In this document: positions 3,213 to 24,352 of the stretch, piece after piece | Position numbering within the stretch: position 1 is the first letter of the stretch | Layout: each line of letters opens with the position of its first letter | Assembly: GCA_950295325.1 (NCBI GenBank) | Contig: OX485803.1 | Location: 42,671,554 to 42,735,553 of the forward strand | Direction: 5' to 3' | Origin: Polytrichum commune | Taxonomy: Eukaryota; Streptophyta; Polytrichopsida; Polytrichales; Polytrichaceae | DNA: 64,000 nt | Translations under genes and position numbers: made by a program | Notes under the pieces: model-generated | The model's database searches: none | Seen by the model: only the letters and a program-made list of their open reading frames with translations | What the model was told of the DNA's origin: nothing

Positions 3213-4415
3213 ACTCGCCTCACCTCTCGAAGTAGAAAAGAAAATGAAAACCTGGCGCCTTCAAAAGGATAAAAAGAGAGAAAAAAAGAAAAAAAAACAC
3301 CAGAGAAGAGATGATGATGTCGCTGCTCCTGTTCTCCTCCTTTCTTCGGTTGTTCCTCAGTCACTCAGTCAGTTTTGGTGGTTTCGGTTTTGTGGAACCC
3401 CTCCCGAATGGGGTAACAAAACCTCTGACCCCAAAAGCATGAGCAACATCTTTACAATCCACAATAATCCCACACCACCACGGGAACTACTAAAGACATT
3501 CCTCCTCTTCCTCCTCCTCCTCCTTCTCCTCCTACTACTACTACTCCAGGCTCCTCCAGCAGCCAAAAAGAGCCTCTCCTCCCTACCGCATTCATCAAAC
3601 AACCTTCGGCTTCTTCAACTTCTACAACGTCTTCTTCTCCTACTTCTCCTTCAGTAGTCTTCACAACTTACACCTTTGCGCAAGATGTTGATGTTGAAGA
3701 TGATGAGCATGAGGATGCTCTTCACGTCTCCACCCTCTCACTTCCATCTCTCTCTCCCTACCCTGTCCCCTACCACACCACACTCTCTCTCTCTCCTGTC
3801 GAGTTGTCTACAATGTGTTTGCACTCACACAGAACCAAGTTCGCCCATACTGCATCATCCCTCGCAGTAAGTATCTCCACACCAAACTTACTCGCGTCGT
3901 CACAGCCCTGAGCCTACTACCAATTCACGTCCCACCACACTTGATGATGTTGGCATCCACAACCCTCAAGTCATGCCACAATCCACGTCAGCTGCTGCTG
4001 CTGCTGCTCGTAGCGCACGAGCGGGCGAGCGAGCTCACACTTCGAAGCACACCGAACCAATTCATCCACAAACGTAGGAGCTCGCCATACACCACTCCCG
4101 CACCCCCATCAAAGCTTTCCGACTCCGCTCCTTTCGTGGTGAAAAAACAAAATGCTCAGAAGAAAGCAAAGACGGACAGACACACAGAGAGGATGAAAAG
4201 CAAGTTGTTTGATTGTTTGTTCCTTCGTTCTTTCATGAATTTCACCACGGGCGGTGAAATCCAGCTCCCTTGGAACTCTCCGAAATCCGTGTAGGGGGAA
4301 AACCACCACCACCACAACCTCCAATCCTCCGTCACGGTGGAACTGCTCCCCAAATTTGCTGCTGTGTTGTTTGAGTTTGTTCTGATAATGTTAGCTTAAC
4401 TTACTACCCCTCCCT

Positions 4416-18690: not shown

Positions 18691-19086
18691 GACCCCGTGC
18701 GTCCCGTGTACTCCCAATGATGCAACTAAACACGGGCCTCGAATTGTCGGAGCCAGGAAATGAAGTAAGTGAGTAAGTAAGTACCAAGAGGCAGGCAGCG
18801 ATGGGCAGAGTGTTAATCCAAATCGAGCGTACTTTGGAGTAATCAGAGTCCTCAGTACTCCTCCTCCGCCCACAAGTGACCGAGGCTTGGCTTGGTTTGG
18901 TTGGGTTTTGGTTGGTTGGTTTGTTTGTTTGTTTGAGCCATTGTTGCAGCCACCTGACTCATATAATAATAAGTACTTAAGGGTAGTAAGCAAGCACGTC
19001 TTTAATGGGATGCTCTCTAGCCCTGCACCCACTTCGTTGTGTAGGGTGTGAACACGGACCACTATGTTAACTCAAGCTCAACTACA
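18691..19086. other. Somewhat GC-rich intergenic stretch
   Basis: Base composition is richer in GC than the surroundings, with GTAA and GTTT/GGTT short tandem runs (18770-18785, 18890-18935). A 138-codon minus-strand frame (18646-19062) crosses the R1 repeat and the telobox and matches no family I know, so I do not call it a gene. Confidence 0.4.
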
Positions 19087-20101
19087 AGGCCACTTCACAC
19101 CAGAGCCCAACATTTTCCTTTTTAATTGCACCCATACCCAGACCATGCCCATCAGTAGTGACCTATGCCCACCCATAGCATGACATGTGCGCACCCATGC
19201 CCACACATAGCATGACATGTGCCCACCCATGCCCACCCATAGCATGACATGTGCCCACCCATGCCCACCCATAGCATGACATGTGCCCACCCATGCCCAC
19301 CCATAGCATGACATGTGCCCACCCATGCCCACCCATGCTATTCAAATTGCGCCCATGTATTCAAAAATTGTGCAATGTGTCTTGTATGATTGTGTAATTG
19401 TGCCCCACCCATGCCCACCCATGAACAATAATATCGCAGTCATGCCCACCCATGCCCACCCATGAACAATAATATCGCAGCCATGCCCACCCATGCCCAC
19501 CCATGAACAATAATATTGCACCCATGCCCACCCAAAACCCATGGGCATGGGTGGGTATGGGCATGGGCATGGGTATGGGCACCCAATGTAGGGCTTTGCT
19601 TCACACACGAGACTGAGAGCCCGTGACCATCTCACTTCAAGCACTCTCGTTGGTGGAAAAGGCGGAGCCGGTCCAAGTTCGCTACTTCATACTACGCTTG
19701 AGGGACCAACGGAGTGTGTGAATGAATTCACGATGGATGGAAAGTCTACATGGATTCGTACATGGCGTCGAATGGATCACGGTTCATGGTCACTTGGACT
19801 GTTTTCAAACACCGCCTCTTGGAGGTAGGCCTCACACAAAACCGGGAGACCATGGCACTCCGAATGCTCTGAGTGGTTGGTTTATTTTATTTTATCATGC
19901 GTGAGGACCCGCATGAATAGAAGTTCATTGAAATGACATTTGGTTGAGGGCCCGGTCACGTACGGCTTCATCCTACACTTGAGGGCCCGTGACCACACTA
20001 CTACATGATTTTGGAGGTGTGTTGGGACGGCTTTTGGACACTTTCTTTTGGGCTCTCACAATTTCATGGTCACGGCTCTTGCCGCGTGTGTGAAGTGGCC
20101 C
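19087..20101. mobile_element. MITE family 1 (GGGCCACTT TIR), copy A, interrupted by a hAT element
   Basis: The ends AGGCCACTTCACAC and GTGTGTGAAGTGGCCC form the family TIR (consensus GGGCCACTTCACACATGAG). The body shares GACTGAGAGCCCGTGACC, a GGCGGAGCCGGTCCAAGTT block, TACATGGCGTCGAATGGAT and TTTTGGGCTCTCACAATTTC with copies B-E. Without the hAT insertion at 19101-19598 and its duplicated 8 bp, the element is about 509 bp, the family's usual size. Flanking triplets (ACA/TAA) do not match here. Confidence 0.85.
19101..19598 (-). mobile_element. hAT-type MITE nested inside MITE 1 copy A
   Basis: The left end CAGAGCCCAACATT and the right end, reverse complemented, CAAAGCCCTACATT form 14-bp TIRs of the hAT type. 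The host element's CTTCACAC is duplicated on both sides (19093-19100, 19599-19606), an 8-bp hAT target duplication. The interior is two minisatellites built on ATGCCCACCC: a 32-bp unit (ATAGCATGACATGTGCCC...) starting at 19175, 19207, 19239, 19271 and 19303, and a 41-bp unit (ATGAACAATAATATCGCAG...) at 19421, 19462 and 19503. It is the inverted, shorter relative of the element at 23669-24344 and lacks the transposase remnant. Confidence 0.92.
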
Positions 20102-22387
20102 TAAGGCGAGTATGTGGGTTTGTTCGATTCTATCTCAACAAAGAAAGAAAGCTTTGTATACGTCAAAAGCATAGATCGATATATGAGCTCCGATTGGATG
20201 TACAAGTGGTTTACTTTATACTAGGGGTCAAATTTCACACAAATTACATAACATTAGTTAGGAAGGAGTCCCACTTTCAGGCCCGATGTTACCCCCCTCC
20301 TTTTTATTTACCCTAGATATGTGTAGTTGGCAGCGTCTTTGATTAGAATGACTATGGCTGGTCCGTGATACTTAGTGGTCCCTAAAATAACATAGTTTGC
20401 ATCACTGGTGTTGAAAGCACAAGCTAATTATGGTCATGTCAAGCTTTGCAAAAGTCGTTGCCTCGGGAACAATACATGCGTACTTTGCCCATTGTAATTC
20501 TCAATCTTTAAGTGGTACATTGTGGTAAATATGTTAGTGTTACAATGTACATTGCACAAATGTTTCATAATTACTATAGAAGTACATGGTAGATCAATGT
20601 CCTCGTTTTTTTGTTCCCTAGAGGGTCTCTATACTAAATAACTAGGTGGGAATGGATTTTGATGTTCCCCACAATGGTCCCCTCAAGGAACATTGTGGGG
20701 AACGCCAAAATCCACTGCCACCTTGCTCTTTACGATTATATGAATGTGTGAAATTTTCATCATCTTCCTTAAGAATAAACATATAGCATAGTTGGAATAA
20801 AGTTTAAGAGGAAAAAGATGTTGGTTCAAATCCTGCACCCGCACTTGCAATTTCTATAAAACTAAACCGATTTATTTTTAAGCATTTCGATTTAAAAAAT
20901 TAAATCCCTTGAGTTTCTGCTCAAGTCTAAAACGACGAATTATTGGAACAGTAGGAACATTCAATGTGTGTAATTACTAGTAGAATGTGATCATTTACAT
21001 GTATGTGGTCCCAAGATGATATGCTTTGCCATTTATGATGTGGACATAACTAGCTTGTGCATTCAAGACTAATGGAGGAAACTATGTTGGGGCTTATTGG
21101 TTGCATGCCAATATCCATACTATACAACAACAGTTTGTGGCTAATGTGGGTCATCATGTAGGTTGACACAATCGAAGTGGGACTTTGGTCCCGGAGGGTG
21201 GCTAGCATCAGTCACAGTAACCATAACCAAATCTCTAATAAGGATGATATGGTTCACGGGGGCATGTGAATTCATGTTTTATTCTCAGCTTCTTGTGAGC
21301 TAGGCCCATGGCCCACCCAACTCAACAAAGGTGTTAGGTAATGTTACGTACCTTGACTAGTTGAAATAATCAATATGAAGGCAATGTAAGACATAAACAG
21401 TGGAATAAAGTAGGAAGGAAAGGACATAGAGGAAGATGAGGCAATCACAACACTGGAAGAAAGAAAAGGTGGGACATGATCAAGGTATGGAAGAATGGGC
21501 TCCCATTCATGGCAGGCATTAAAAACATAGATGTTATTTTTCTTTTATTTTTCTTGATGAAGGATGGGACATGCTATAGTTTTGTTTACTGTGGTTGGAG
21601 AGAACACTATATGTAGTAAAGTTGTCACCCTTCCAACTCTACGTCACCTCTATGATTTGGTTGAAGATATTTATGGGAATTTTCTAATGGAGATTCCATT
21701 TTTGAAATCGACCTCCAACTAAGTTCAAGTCCTAGAGTTCGTTTACTCCCAACACCATTAAGAAGAAACGTCCATGTCAAAATGCCTAACACTAATCTCC
21801 TCTTAGATTTGTATATATGTGTGATTTTGGGGGATGAGTTTGGTGAGTTTCTCATGGTGAGATCTCATGCACCGTAGGTGATGTGAGTATATTCTTGATA
21901 CCTCTAGAAAGCCATTGGTGAAGTGCAATGTATCTTGGATATTTCATTTCAATCCGATTGAATTTGAGGGAGGTGTTGATTAAAACGTTCATTGTTTTTG
22001 GTACTATACATGTGAAACTTTGGGTAGCTAATCTTTAGGATTTCTTGTATAAATACATATTGCAAAAGTAGCTTCCATAATGCCAAAAACATCATTTTGA
22101 GATACTTCGGTTCTTGAATTACGATTTGAAGATGGTCTCTCATTTTATAGCATTATATACCTCATTGTTGTGTGGATAATGTGAAGCTGGGATTGATTCC
22201 CTTGGGTATTTTTGAATGATGCTTTCTGAATCCTCTCTTTGCAAATTCAACGTAGAATACCGTATGTTGTGGACATAAAATGAATGCAAGCGCCACCTGC
22301 CAAGCAAAATAATTTGATTAGCCTTGATATGGAATGAGAACTATGGGTTGGGACCCAATAATGTAATGTTGATAGTGTAATATGCAA
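20102..22387. other. Intergenic DNA, no gene recognised
   Basis: Contains the long hairpin at 20644-20723 (listed separately). Short frames at 20005-20316 and 21625-21855 match nothing I know. 20590-20690 weakly resembles 39050-39130. Confidence 0.5.
20644..20723. repeat. 37-bp stem hairpin with 6-nt loop
   Basis: The arms 20644-20680 and 20687-20723 are complementary with five mismatches, sharing GTTCCCCACAATG and TGGATTTTG. The loop is CCTCAA. It could be a small foldback element or a small-RNA precursor; the sequence alone does not decide. Confidence 0.8.
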
Positions 22388-22765: not shown

Positions 22766-23660
22766 CGGATGACTCTAATGCCAATTTCATGTTAACGGGT
22801 TGTTTGTGAATGGAATGATGTACCATGTGCTCACCACCAAAGGCCACACTAAAGGGGCACTAGAGTAGAGGATGTTGCCCTTTTGTACGAGGAGAGAGGC
22901 AACCTATATCTACACATACAATGGAATGACAAAGGCCAAATACGGAGATATCCAAAATACCAAAGTGAAAGGACTTACCATCATGCGATGGATAAAGCTG
23001 GGTCCCATGCATCGCCAAGAGCAATTTTACTACTCGATTCCACATCATGAAAGAGCCCCAAAAGTTGTAATGGGGGGTGATTTTGGTGGGCGATTCCTCG
23101 ACAATGTCACTTTACAAGCGTCCATTGTCTAGAGATATTCAAATGCAAAAGGAGGACGAGGGGAGACAATGAATGCCCACACTCAATGGTTGATACTAAA
23201 GTGCTAAATGGGCGATGGGCTTTGCGCCACTACCTTGAAAATGATGTCAAGTCACTTTAATTTTGTAAGCAACCTTACAAAATTACCCCAATCATAACAT
23301 TGTTAAGGTCTTAATAGAGTCACCACTAGAAGATGATTCCAAAAGCTGGCATTTATGTATATTTGTTCAAACTGTTTGTCCAAAAATATCAAGGAATGTG
23401 GACTTGTGACGACAAAACACCAAACAACAATGGCAAAACAACAACACAACAACCACAACTTTGAATGTTTATATTTCATGTTCATCAACCACCATATTTG
23501 TGTAGTTAGCAATGTAATTCGTGTCATGTTGACGAATGGAATTGTCCTAAATTCGTGCATAAAGTCAAATATACTTAAATCCTAGTTGTAAGCACTTGCA
23601 ACAAGATCGAGGGGTTTGGTATTTACGATTTAGAGCAACTCCAACAAATCCTAAGGTTAT
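22766..23660. other. Intergenic DNA, no gene recognised
   Basis: Contains short frames at 22872-23132 and 23355-23585 with no family resemblance. Nothing else stands out. Confidence 0.5.
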
Positions 23661-23668
23661 CCGTAAAG

Positions 23669-24344
23669 CAGAGCCCTACATTGGGTGCCCATACCCACCC
23701 ATGCCCATGGGTTTTGGGTGGGCATGGGTGCGATATTATTATTCATGGGTGGGCATGGGTGGGCATGGGTTCAATATTGTTGTTCATGGGTGGGCATGGG
23801 TGGGCATGGCTGCGATGTTATTGTTCATGGGTGGGAATGGGTTCGATATTATTGTTCATGGGTAAGCATGGGCTAAAGCAAAGCATATTGGATACCACTG
23901 CTAAATTCAGTATTCTCTTGTGGTGGAAGCTGAAAGGAGCCCCCACATTCCCCATCATGTCGCACATGGCGCGTTCAGTTTTGTGCATCCCTGCATCCAA
24001 CTCCAAATCGGAGTCAAACTTCTCGGATGCAGGGAATACGCTAACCAAGAAGTGCTCCAGGTTGAAGCCAGCGATAGTGAACGACCTTTTATTTGTCCAA
24101 TCCAACCAAGACTTGGTGTAGGCGGGTAATCCACATTACACAATTTTTGAATACATGGGCACAATTTAAATAGCATGGGTTAGCATGGGTGGGCATGGGT
24201 GGGCACATGTCATGCTATGTGTGGGCATGGGTGGGCATGGGTGCGCACATGTCATGCTATGGGTGGGCATGGGTGGGCATAGGTCGCTGCTGATGGGCAT
24301 GGTCTGGGTATGGGTGCAATTTAAAGGCAAAATGTTGGGCTCTG
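23669..24344 (+). mobile_element. hAT element, deletion derivative retaining a transposase fragment
   Basis: The ends CAGAGCCCTACATTGGG and (reverse complement of the right end) CAGAGCCCAACATTTTG are hAT-type TIRs. CCGTAAAG is duplicated exactly at 23661-23668 and 24345-24352. Both subterminal regions are the same GGGTGGGCATG minisatellite found in the copy at 19101-19598, in inverse orientation. Between them lies about 250 bp of unique sequence holding the hATC remnant (23885-24121). It is intermediate between an autonomous element and the shorter MITE. Confidence 0.93.
23885..24121 (+). pseudogene. hAT transposase C-terminal dimerisation domain (hATC) remnant
   Basis: The plus-strand frame ending at the stop at 24119-24121 encodes about 78 residues with hATC landmarks in order: WWK (from 23921), a P.MSHMAR helix, L.IPASN, SESNFSDAG, LT....RLKP..V and a final LL.VQSN. 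In complete hAT transposases this region mediates dimerisation and follows the catalytic RNase H-like domain, which is absent here together with any zinc-finger N-terminus. Upstream the same frame runs into the minisatellite, so no functional start exists. The reading frame is still open across the domain, suggesting limited decay. It cannot be an active transposase. Confidence 0.88.
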
Positions 24345-24352
24345 CCGTAAAG

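Follow-up and report, generated by a model that had tools for sequence, protein, structure and literature searches.

The 676-bp element at positions 23669..24344 (+ strand) of the window, the 64,000-nucleotide stretch of Polytrichum commune DNA analyzed here, is very probably a MITE-like miniature hAT transposon that arose by one internal deletion of a ~5-kb autonomous-type hAT element, was presumably multiplied in trans, and carries a transposase C-terminal domain (hATC) as a passenger. It consists of E1-222 joined to E4678-5047, where E coordinates are positions on a 5,047-bp full-length relative in the same genome, and we assign it to deletion class A. The element is non-autonomous and of MITE type, being short, with intact ends and incomplete coding capacity (transposase residues before 618 are absent).

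The TIRs of the hAT superfamily are short and of the CAGNG type. The two ends of the element, CAGAGCCCTACATT (left) and AATGTTGGGCTCTG (right), are TIRs of this type, 14 bp long with one mismatch; the left repeat CAGAGCCCTACATT lies at 23669..23682 (+) and the right, given as CAGAGCCCAACATT, at 24331..24344 (-). A perfect 8-bp target site duplication, CCGTAAAG, occurs on both flanks (23661..23668 and 24345..24352, no strand assigned). Inside the ends are two subterminal minisatellites, both built on CATGGGTGGG: one on the left with CATGGGTGGG-type units and periods of 10, 31, and 41 (23715..23872, +), and one on the right (24173..24284, +). The left-end pattern, allowing up to two mismatches, has 7 matches in the window, versus a mean of 1.28 and a largest value of 4 in 100 shuffles. 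A paired-end scan of the window (ends 100-6500 bp apart, at most one mismatch in the duplication) recovered only two elements, this one (L001 in the scan) and another at 19101. An Rfam scan of the window gave no match. The original prediction, made from the letters alone, had described an hAT deletion derivative that still encodes the transposase C-terminal domain; its coordinates, 23669-24344, are exact, and the TIRs, the perfect CCGTAAAG duplication, the open hATC segment, and the motifs that it listed are correct.

The coding part is what remains, still open, of the end of a transposase gene: residue 618 onward, of 693, together with the stop codon (23890..24121, +). It lies within a frame of 180 codons that is open over 23579-24121. 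Pfam Dimer_Tnp_hAT (PF05699), the hATC profile against which a check had been proposed, matches window positions 23867-24121 with an E value of 1.1e-19 over profile positions 7-83 of 84 (70.5 bits versus a cut-off of 21.4), which rules out chance similarity to hATC. The gene-derived part begins only at the junction at 23890, so the first few residues matched by the profile are encoded by the element's left end. Among solved structures the remnant aligns with Hermes transposase chains (best E value 2.4e-10); it has four matching sequences there, each of them from Hermes or annotated as a transposase. It includes a glutamate aligned with Hermes E572, the sole equivalent of a key Hermes residue kept in the window element.

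A full-length relative was reached through a PF05699 search of the genome (407.8 Mb, 64 contigs), in which the best 150 of 1060 candidates were scored, including a 698-codon open frame on contig C5. The element around this frame is 5,047 bp long (G000:C5:19121909-19126955) and has a perfect duplication, GCATGTAG, on both sides. It shares its first 29 bp exactly with the window element, and the right parts of the two have 94.5% identity over E4678-4988 (311 positions) and 97.7% over the last 86. The original prediction had called for a genome search for an autonomous parent; the element found has the same ends and an unbroken 693-codon frame, and together with the PF05699 match it bears out the reading of the window element as an hAT deletion derivative with its C-terminal domain. 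The transposase frame spans E2828-4909 including the stop and encodes 693 residues from the first ATG; the gene starts 2.8 kb from the left terminus and stops 138 bp from the right terminus. Pfam domains in the frame are DBD_Tnp_Hermes (E value 1.6e-5) and Dimer_Tnp_hAT. Five key residues of Hermes, D180, D248, R318, W319, and E572 (excerpt of PMC6027215), align with D200, D271, R365, W366, and E658, and all five are identical.

Comparison with this relative accounts for the whole of the window element. Positions 1-224 of the element correspond to E1-222, at 100% identity over the first 29 and 87% beyond, the differences lying in the repeats; from position 222 onward it continues as E4678-5047. 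Read letter by letter, the join has GGA common to both sides (23890..23892, +), and E223-4677 are absent, so that one internal deletion explains the element. Deletion by faulty repair after excision has been inferred from such junction patterns in other transposons. Here E222 and E4678 of a ~5-kb hAT element were joined at this 3-bp microhomology, probably in the same way. The deletion kept both ends with their TIRs and subterminal minisatellites, which are presumably transposase binding sites, and its product may then have been moved in trans by full-length transposase and multiplied, with the hATC-coding piece carried along as a passenger that shows no detectable maintenance as a protein. 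The step in trans is suggested by the many copies that share the same ends and are flanked by different 8-bp duplications.

A genome search with the 676-bp element gave 714 first-look candidates; the hATC core is present in all 40 of the best that were scored, a set that includes the window's own copy and was found with a query that itself contains the core. Among the loci fetched (L001-L102, duplicates dropped), we counted at least 23 copies of class A (joined at E4678), which combines high copy number with a shared structure, at least 21 of class S (joined at E4635), at least 11 of class B including the window copy at 19101, and at least 25 others. Classes A and S are the best-populated hATC-bearing classes; 370 and 413 bp of right-end sequence remain in them, respectively. 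Other right breakpoints, taken from the starts of BLAST matches, are at E3690, 4172, 4453, 4486, 4500, 4513, 4521, 4568, 4572, 4596, 4657, and 4690, with 4638 and 4639 near that of class S; this list is drawn from L001-L070, many of which overlap each other and all of which were located by hATC-containing queries. The left side is resolved except at 3690, 4172, and 4572, and L034, L059, L060, and L065 are cut by the locus end. Mean divergence is 2.9% in A, 3.2% in S, and 1.1% in B, for copies picked by likeness to the queries, so these values give no age ranking.

Duplications across the family were also compared. In 73 sequences, some overlapping, we identified 46 paired-end elements, accepting at most one mismatch in the 8-bp duplication, which is perfect in 37 of them and mismatched at one position in 9. 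The duplication motif of Ac-type hAT elements is nTnnnnAn. Of 37 perfect duplications tested (36 of the paired-end set, with that of L004 omitted, plus that of the full-length copy), 26 have both T2 and A7, a tendency toward this motif; the window element's own CCGTAAAG is without T2. In L004, a second element without hATC (1025-1462) adjoins a class-A copy, and its duplication, CACCAGAG, resembles the family's own end; this is possibly a clustered or nested insertion.

A genome search with the 693-aa frame gave 67 matches among the best 64 of 231 candidates scored, which group into 51 places: 15 near-full (starting by residue 100 and ending at residue 640 or beyond), 31 C-terminal only (starting at residue 330 or beyond and ending at residue 670 or beyond), 1 N-terminal only, and 4 other. 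Of the near-full places, the C5 copy alone covers residues 1-693 in a single stop-free frame; a second near-full place on C5 is stop-free but split between two frames. Against the full-length frame, dN/dS of the long copies is 0.24 for L059, 0.24 for L060 (the same values), and 0.27 for L065, and that of shorter copies, which may include decay, is 0.38 for L049, 0.55 for L047, and 0.32 for L034 (the same place as L049). Between copies it is 0.43 for L059-L065, 0.27 for L059-L049, and 0.34 for L065-L049. Judged from these sequences, constraint on the long transposase copies is not uniform (0.27-0.55 in the other comparisons). On C4 there are two pairs of oppositely oriented transposase copies, the members of a pair having the same match scores: 54394495-54396572 and 54437884-54439961, with starts ~43 kb apart, and 50791940-50795342 and 50855449-50858851, with starts ~64 kb apart. 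The first pair also has equal values in the identity and dN/dS comparisons. Such pairs would be either inverted duplications of large size or a product of the assembly.

Why so many derivatives keep hATC has a simple geometric answer: with the gene stop 138 bp short of the right terminus, a derivative in which a few hundred bases remain at that end retains hATC. To sample right ends independently of the domain, the non-coding right end of the full-length copy served as query (524 candidates, 40 scored, 30 fetched); the resulting 30 loci, ranked by likeness to that right end and therefore not random, comprise 1 full-length copy, 15 with a whole or nearly whole hATC, 4 with a partial one, and 10 with none. 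The cuts inside hATC are at E4711, 4815, 4815, and 4817. With 4 of 30 loci cut within the domain and 10 of 30 lacking it, there is no barrier to deletion in front of hATC, and that explanation is ruled out. It is also unlikely that the 3' coding segment is retained as a cis-acting sequence for efficient transposition: the 370 and 413 bp of right end kept by the best-populated hATC classes would suit such a role, but class B is well populated with only 132 bp of parental right end (E4916-5047) plus extra repeat units, and breakpoints within hATC exist. Nor do the copies point to use of the piece as a protein. Of the 40 aligned copies, 6 have stops in the frame and 8 have frame-breaking indels; one has both, leaving 27 free of either. 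Distinct variants among these copies were compared with the same changes placed at random in the same sequence context. Variants in at most three copies comprise 30 synonymous, 70 non-synonymous, and 3 stop changes (expected 31.1, 67.1, and 4.7), singletons are 23, 44, and 2 (20.3, 45.2, and 3.5), and all variants are 38, 82, and 3 (38.2, 80.0, and 4.8). Stops are slightly under expectation in all three sets, within scatter (a fraction of 0.28-0.30 of the simulations gave no more stops than observed). We obtained an omega-like ratio of 1.08 (95% interval 0.70-1.72), and a value of 0.24 is rejected at 2.8e-13. Since the changes fit neutrality, versus 0.24-0.27 on the long transposase copies, we take the remnant as what it looks like, a freely mutating passenger, and reject as unlikely a conserved small protein. 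The 27 intact frames reflect low divergence (3.1% from the consensus), and they leave room for recent function in some copies. KP is a truncated P-element protein that functions as a regulator, and a translated hATC remnant might by analogy with such proteins be a dominant-negative regulator of full-length transposase. The open frame of the window copy with in-frame ATGs upstream within the minisatellite, the dimerization region implied by the Pfam name of hATC, and the 27 of 40 copies without stops or frame-breaking indels in the aligned part would accord with this; the neutral changes, which reject the constraint of the long copies, and the loci of the right-end sample that are cut inside hATC or are without it make it highly improbable. 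Equally improbable is a weaker form, in which the hATC-only peptide of some copies dimerizes with full-length transposase and damps its activity without detectable long-term selection on the frame; if true, the family would carry its own brake.

The passenger reading leaves the relation between the window element and its neighbor. The latter, at 19101..19598 (-), is a 498-bp MITE related to the first element and belonging to deletion class B; it is without hATC and flanked by a perfect duplication, CTTCACAC, at 19093-19100 and 19599-19606; it has minisatellite ends of the same kind and parental right-end sequence from E4916. The original prediction was right about these ends and the missing domain, and had taken the pair to show an intermediate on the way from an autonomous element to a MITE. 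Geometry permits the 19101 copy to derive from the 676-bp element by further deletion, the parental sequence in it lying entirely within the part that the 676-bp element retains. Two class-fixed bases speak against such descent. At E4956, all 22 class-A copies that can be scored carry A (the 23rd has a gap), whereas G is found in all 21 class-S copies, all 11 class-B copies, all 24 scorable copies of other kinds, and the full-length element. At E5026, all 11 class-B copies, that of the window among them, carry A, whereas each of the 32 copies from outside class B that can be scored (12 in A, 8 in S, 12 other) carries T. Descent between A and B would require bases to have changed back, so an ancestor-descendant relation of the two elements is rejected as very unlikely, and the bases fit classes A and B as parallel deletion lineages of one parent family.

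Class B makes up 10 of the 30 loci in the right-end sample; a genome search with the 19101 copy gave 710 first-look candidates, of which 40 were scored, unsorted by class. In class-B copies (L082, L092-L098, L101, and L102) the deletion junction holds short ACACAATT-type units in varying number, forming a small array that seems to have grown there. The 19101 copy is nested in a ~1-kb inverted-repeat element (window ~19086-20102) with ends (A)GGCCACTTCACAC and GTGTGAAGTGGCC(CT). In the copy of this host repeat that carries L043, the 19101 site is empty and the target sequence is present once; L043 itself, again with CTTCACAC as its target, occupies a different position, and each of the two host-repeat copies thus shows the other's site without insertion.

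A MITE from an internally deleted hAT element is of a kind already known, and nothing here is of a new kind. The family is a clear worked example of MITE origin, with a full-length hAT, several junctions, and several amplified deletion classes in one genome, and it provides a simple geometric reason why many derivatives retain hATC. It also carries a warning for annotation: short open frames hold many of the 150 scored hATC matches, and the matches that belong to this hAT family are deletion remnants, not genes. The closest solved relative of the 693-aa frame is Hermes of the house fly (PDB 8edg, 6dww, 4d1q, and 2bw3; E value 5.1e-47), in a protein comparison with solved structures in which only residues 29-450 and 622-688 align. 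Mar, a hAT/Buster element of the Drosophila willistoni group, is alike in that its MITEs are attributed, in the excerpted account, to internal deletion of a full-length copy followed by amplification; there the full-length D. willistoni copy is without coding capacity, whereas here one 693-codon frame is unbroken and several deletion classes coexist, many retaining hATC (PMC3517528). BuT2, another Drosophila hAT, likewise has short sequences with the ends of the complete element, attributed to internal deletion, but as portrayed in part of that report the amplified ones hold only the element boundaries, whereas the 3' coding end is kept here (PMC3942097). For rice mPing, internal deletion is the suggested origin according to a passage in a review (PMC12595863). 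Har-P, a short truncated P-element derivative, is moved by the transposase of the full-length element, as we envisage for the present elements; Har-P belongs to the P superfamily and its activity is demonstrated, whereas this family is hAT and its mobilization is deduced from sequence (PMC6917496).
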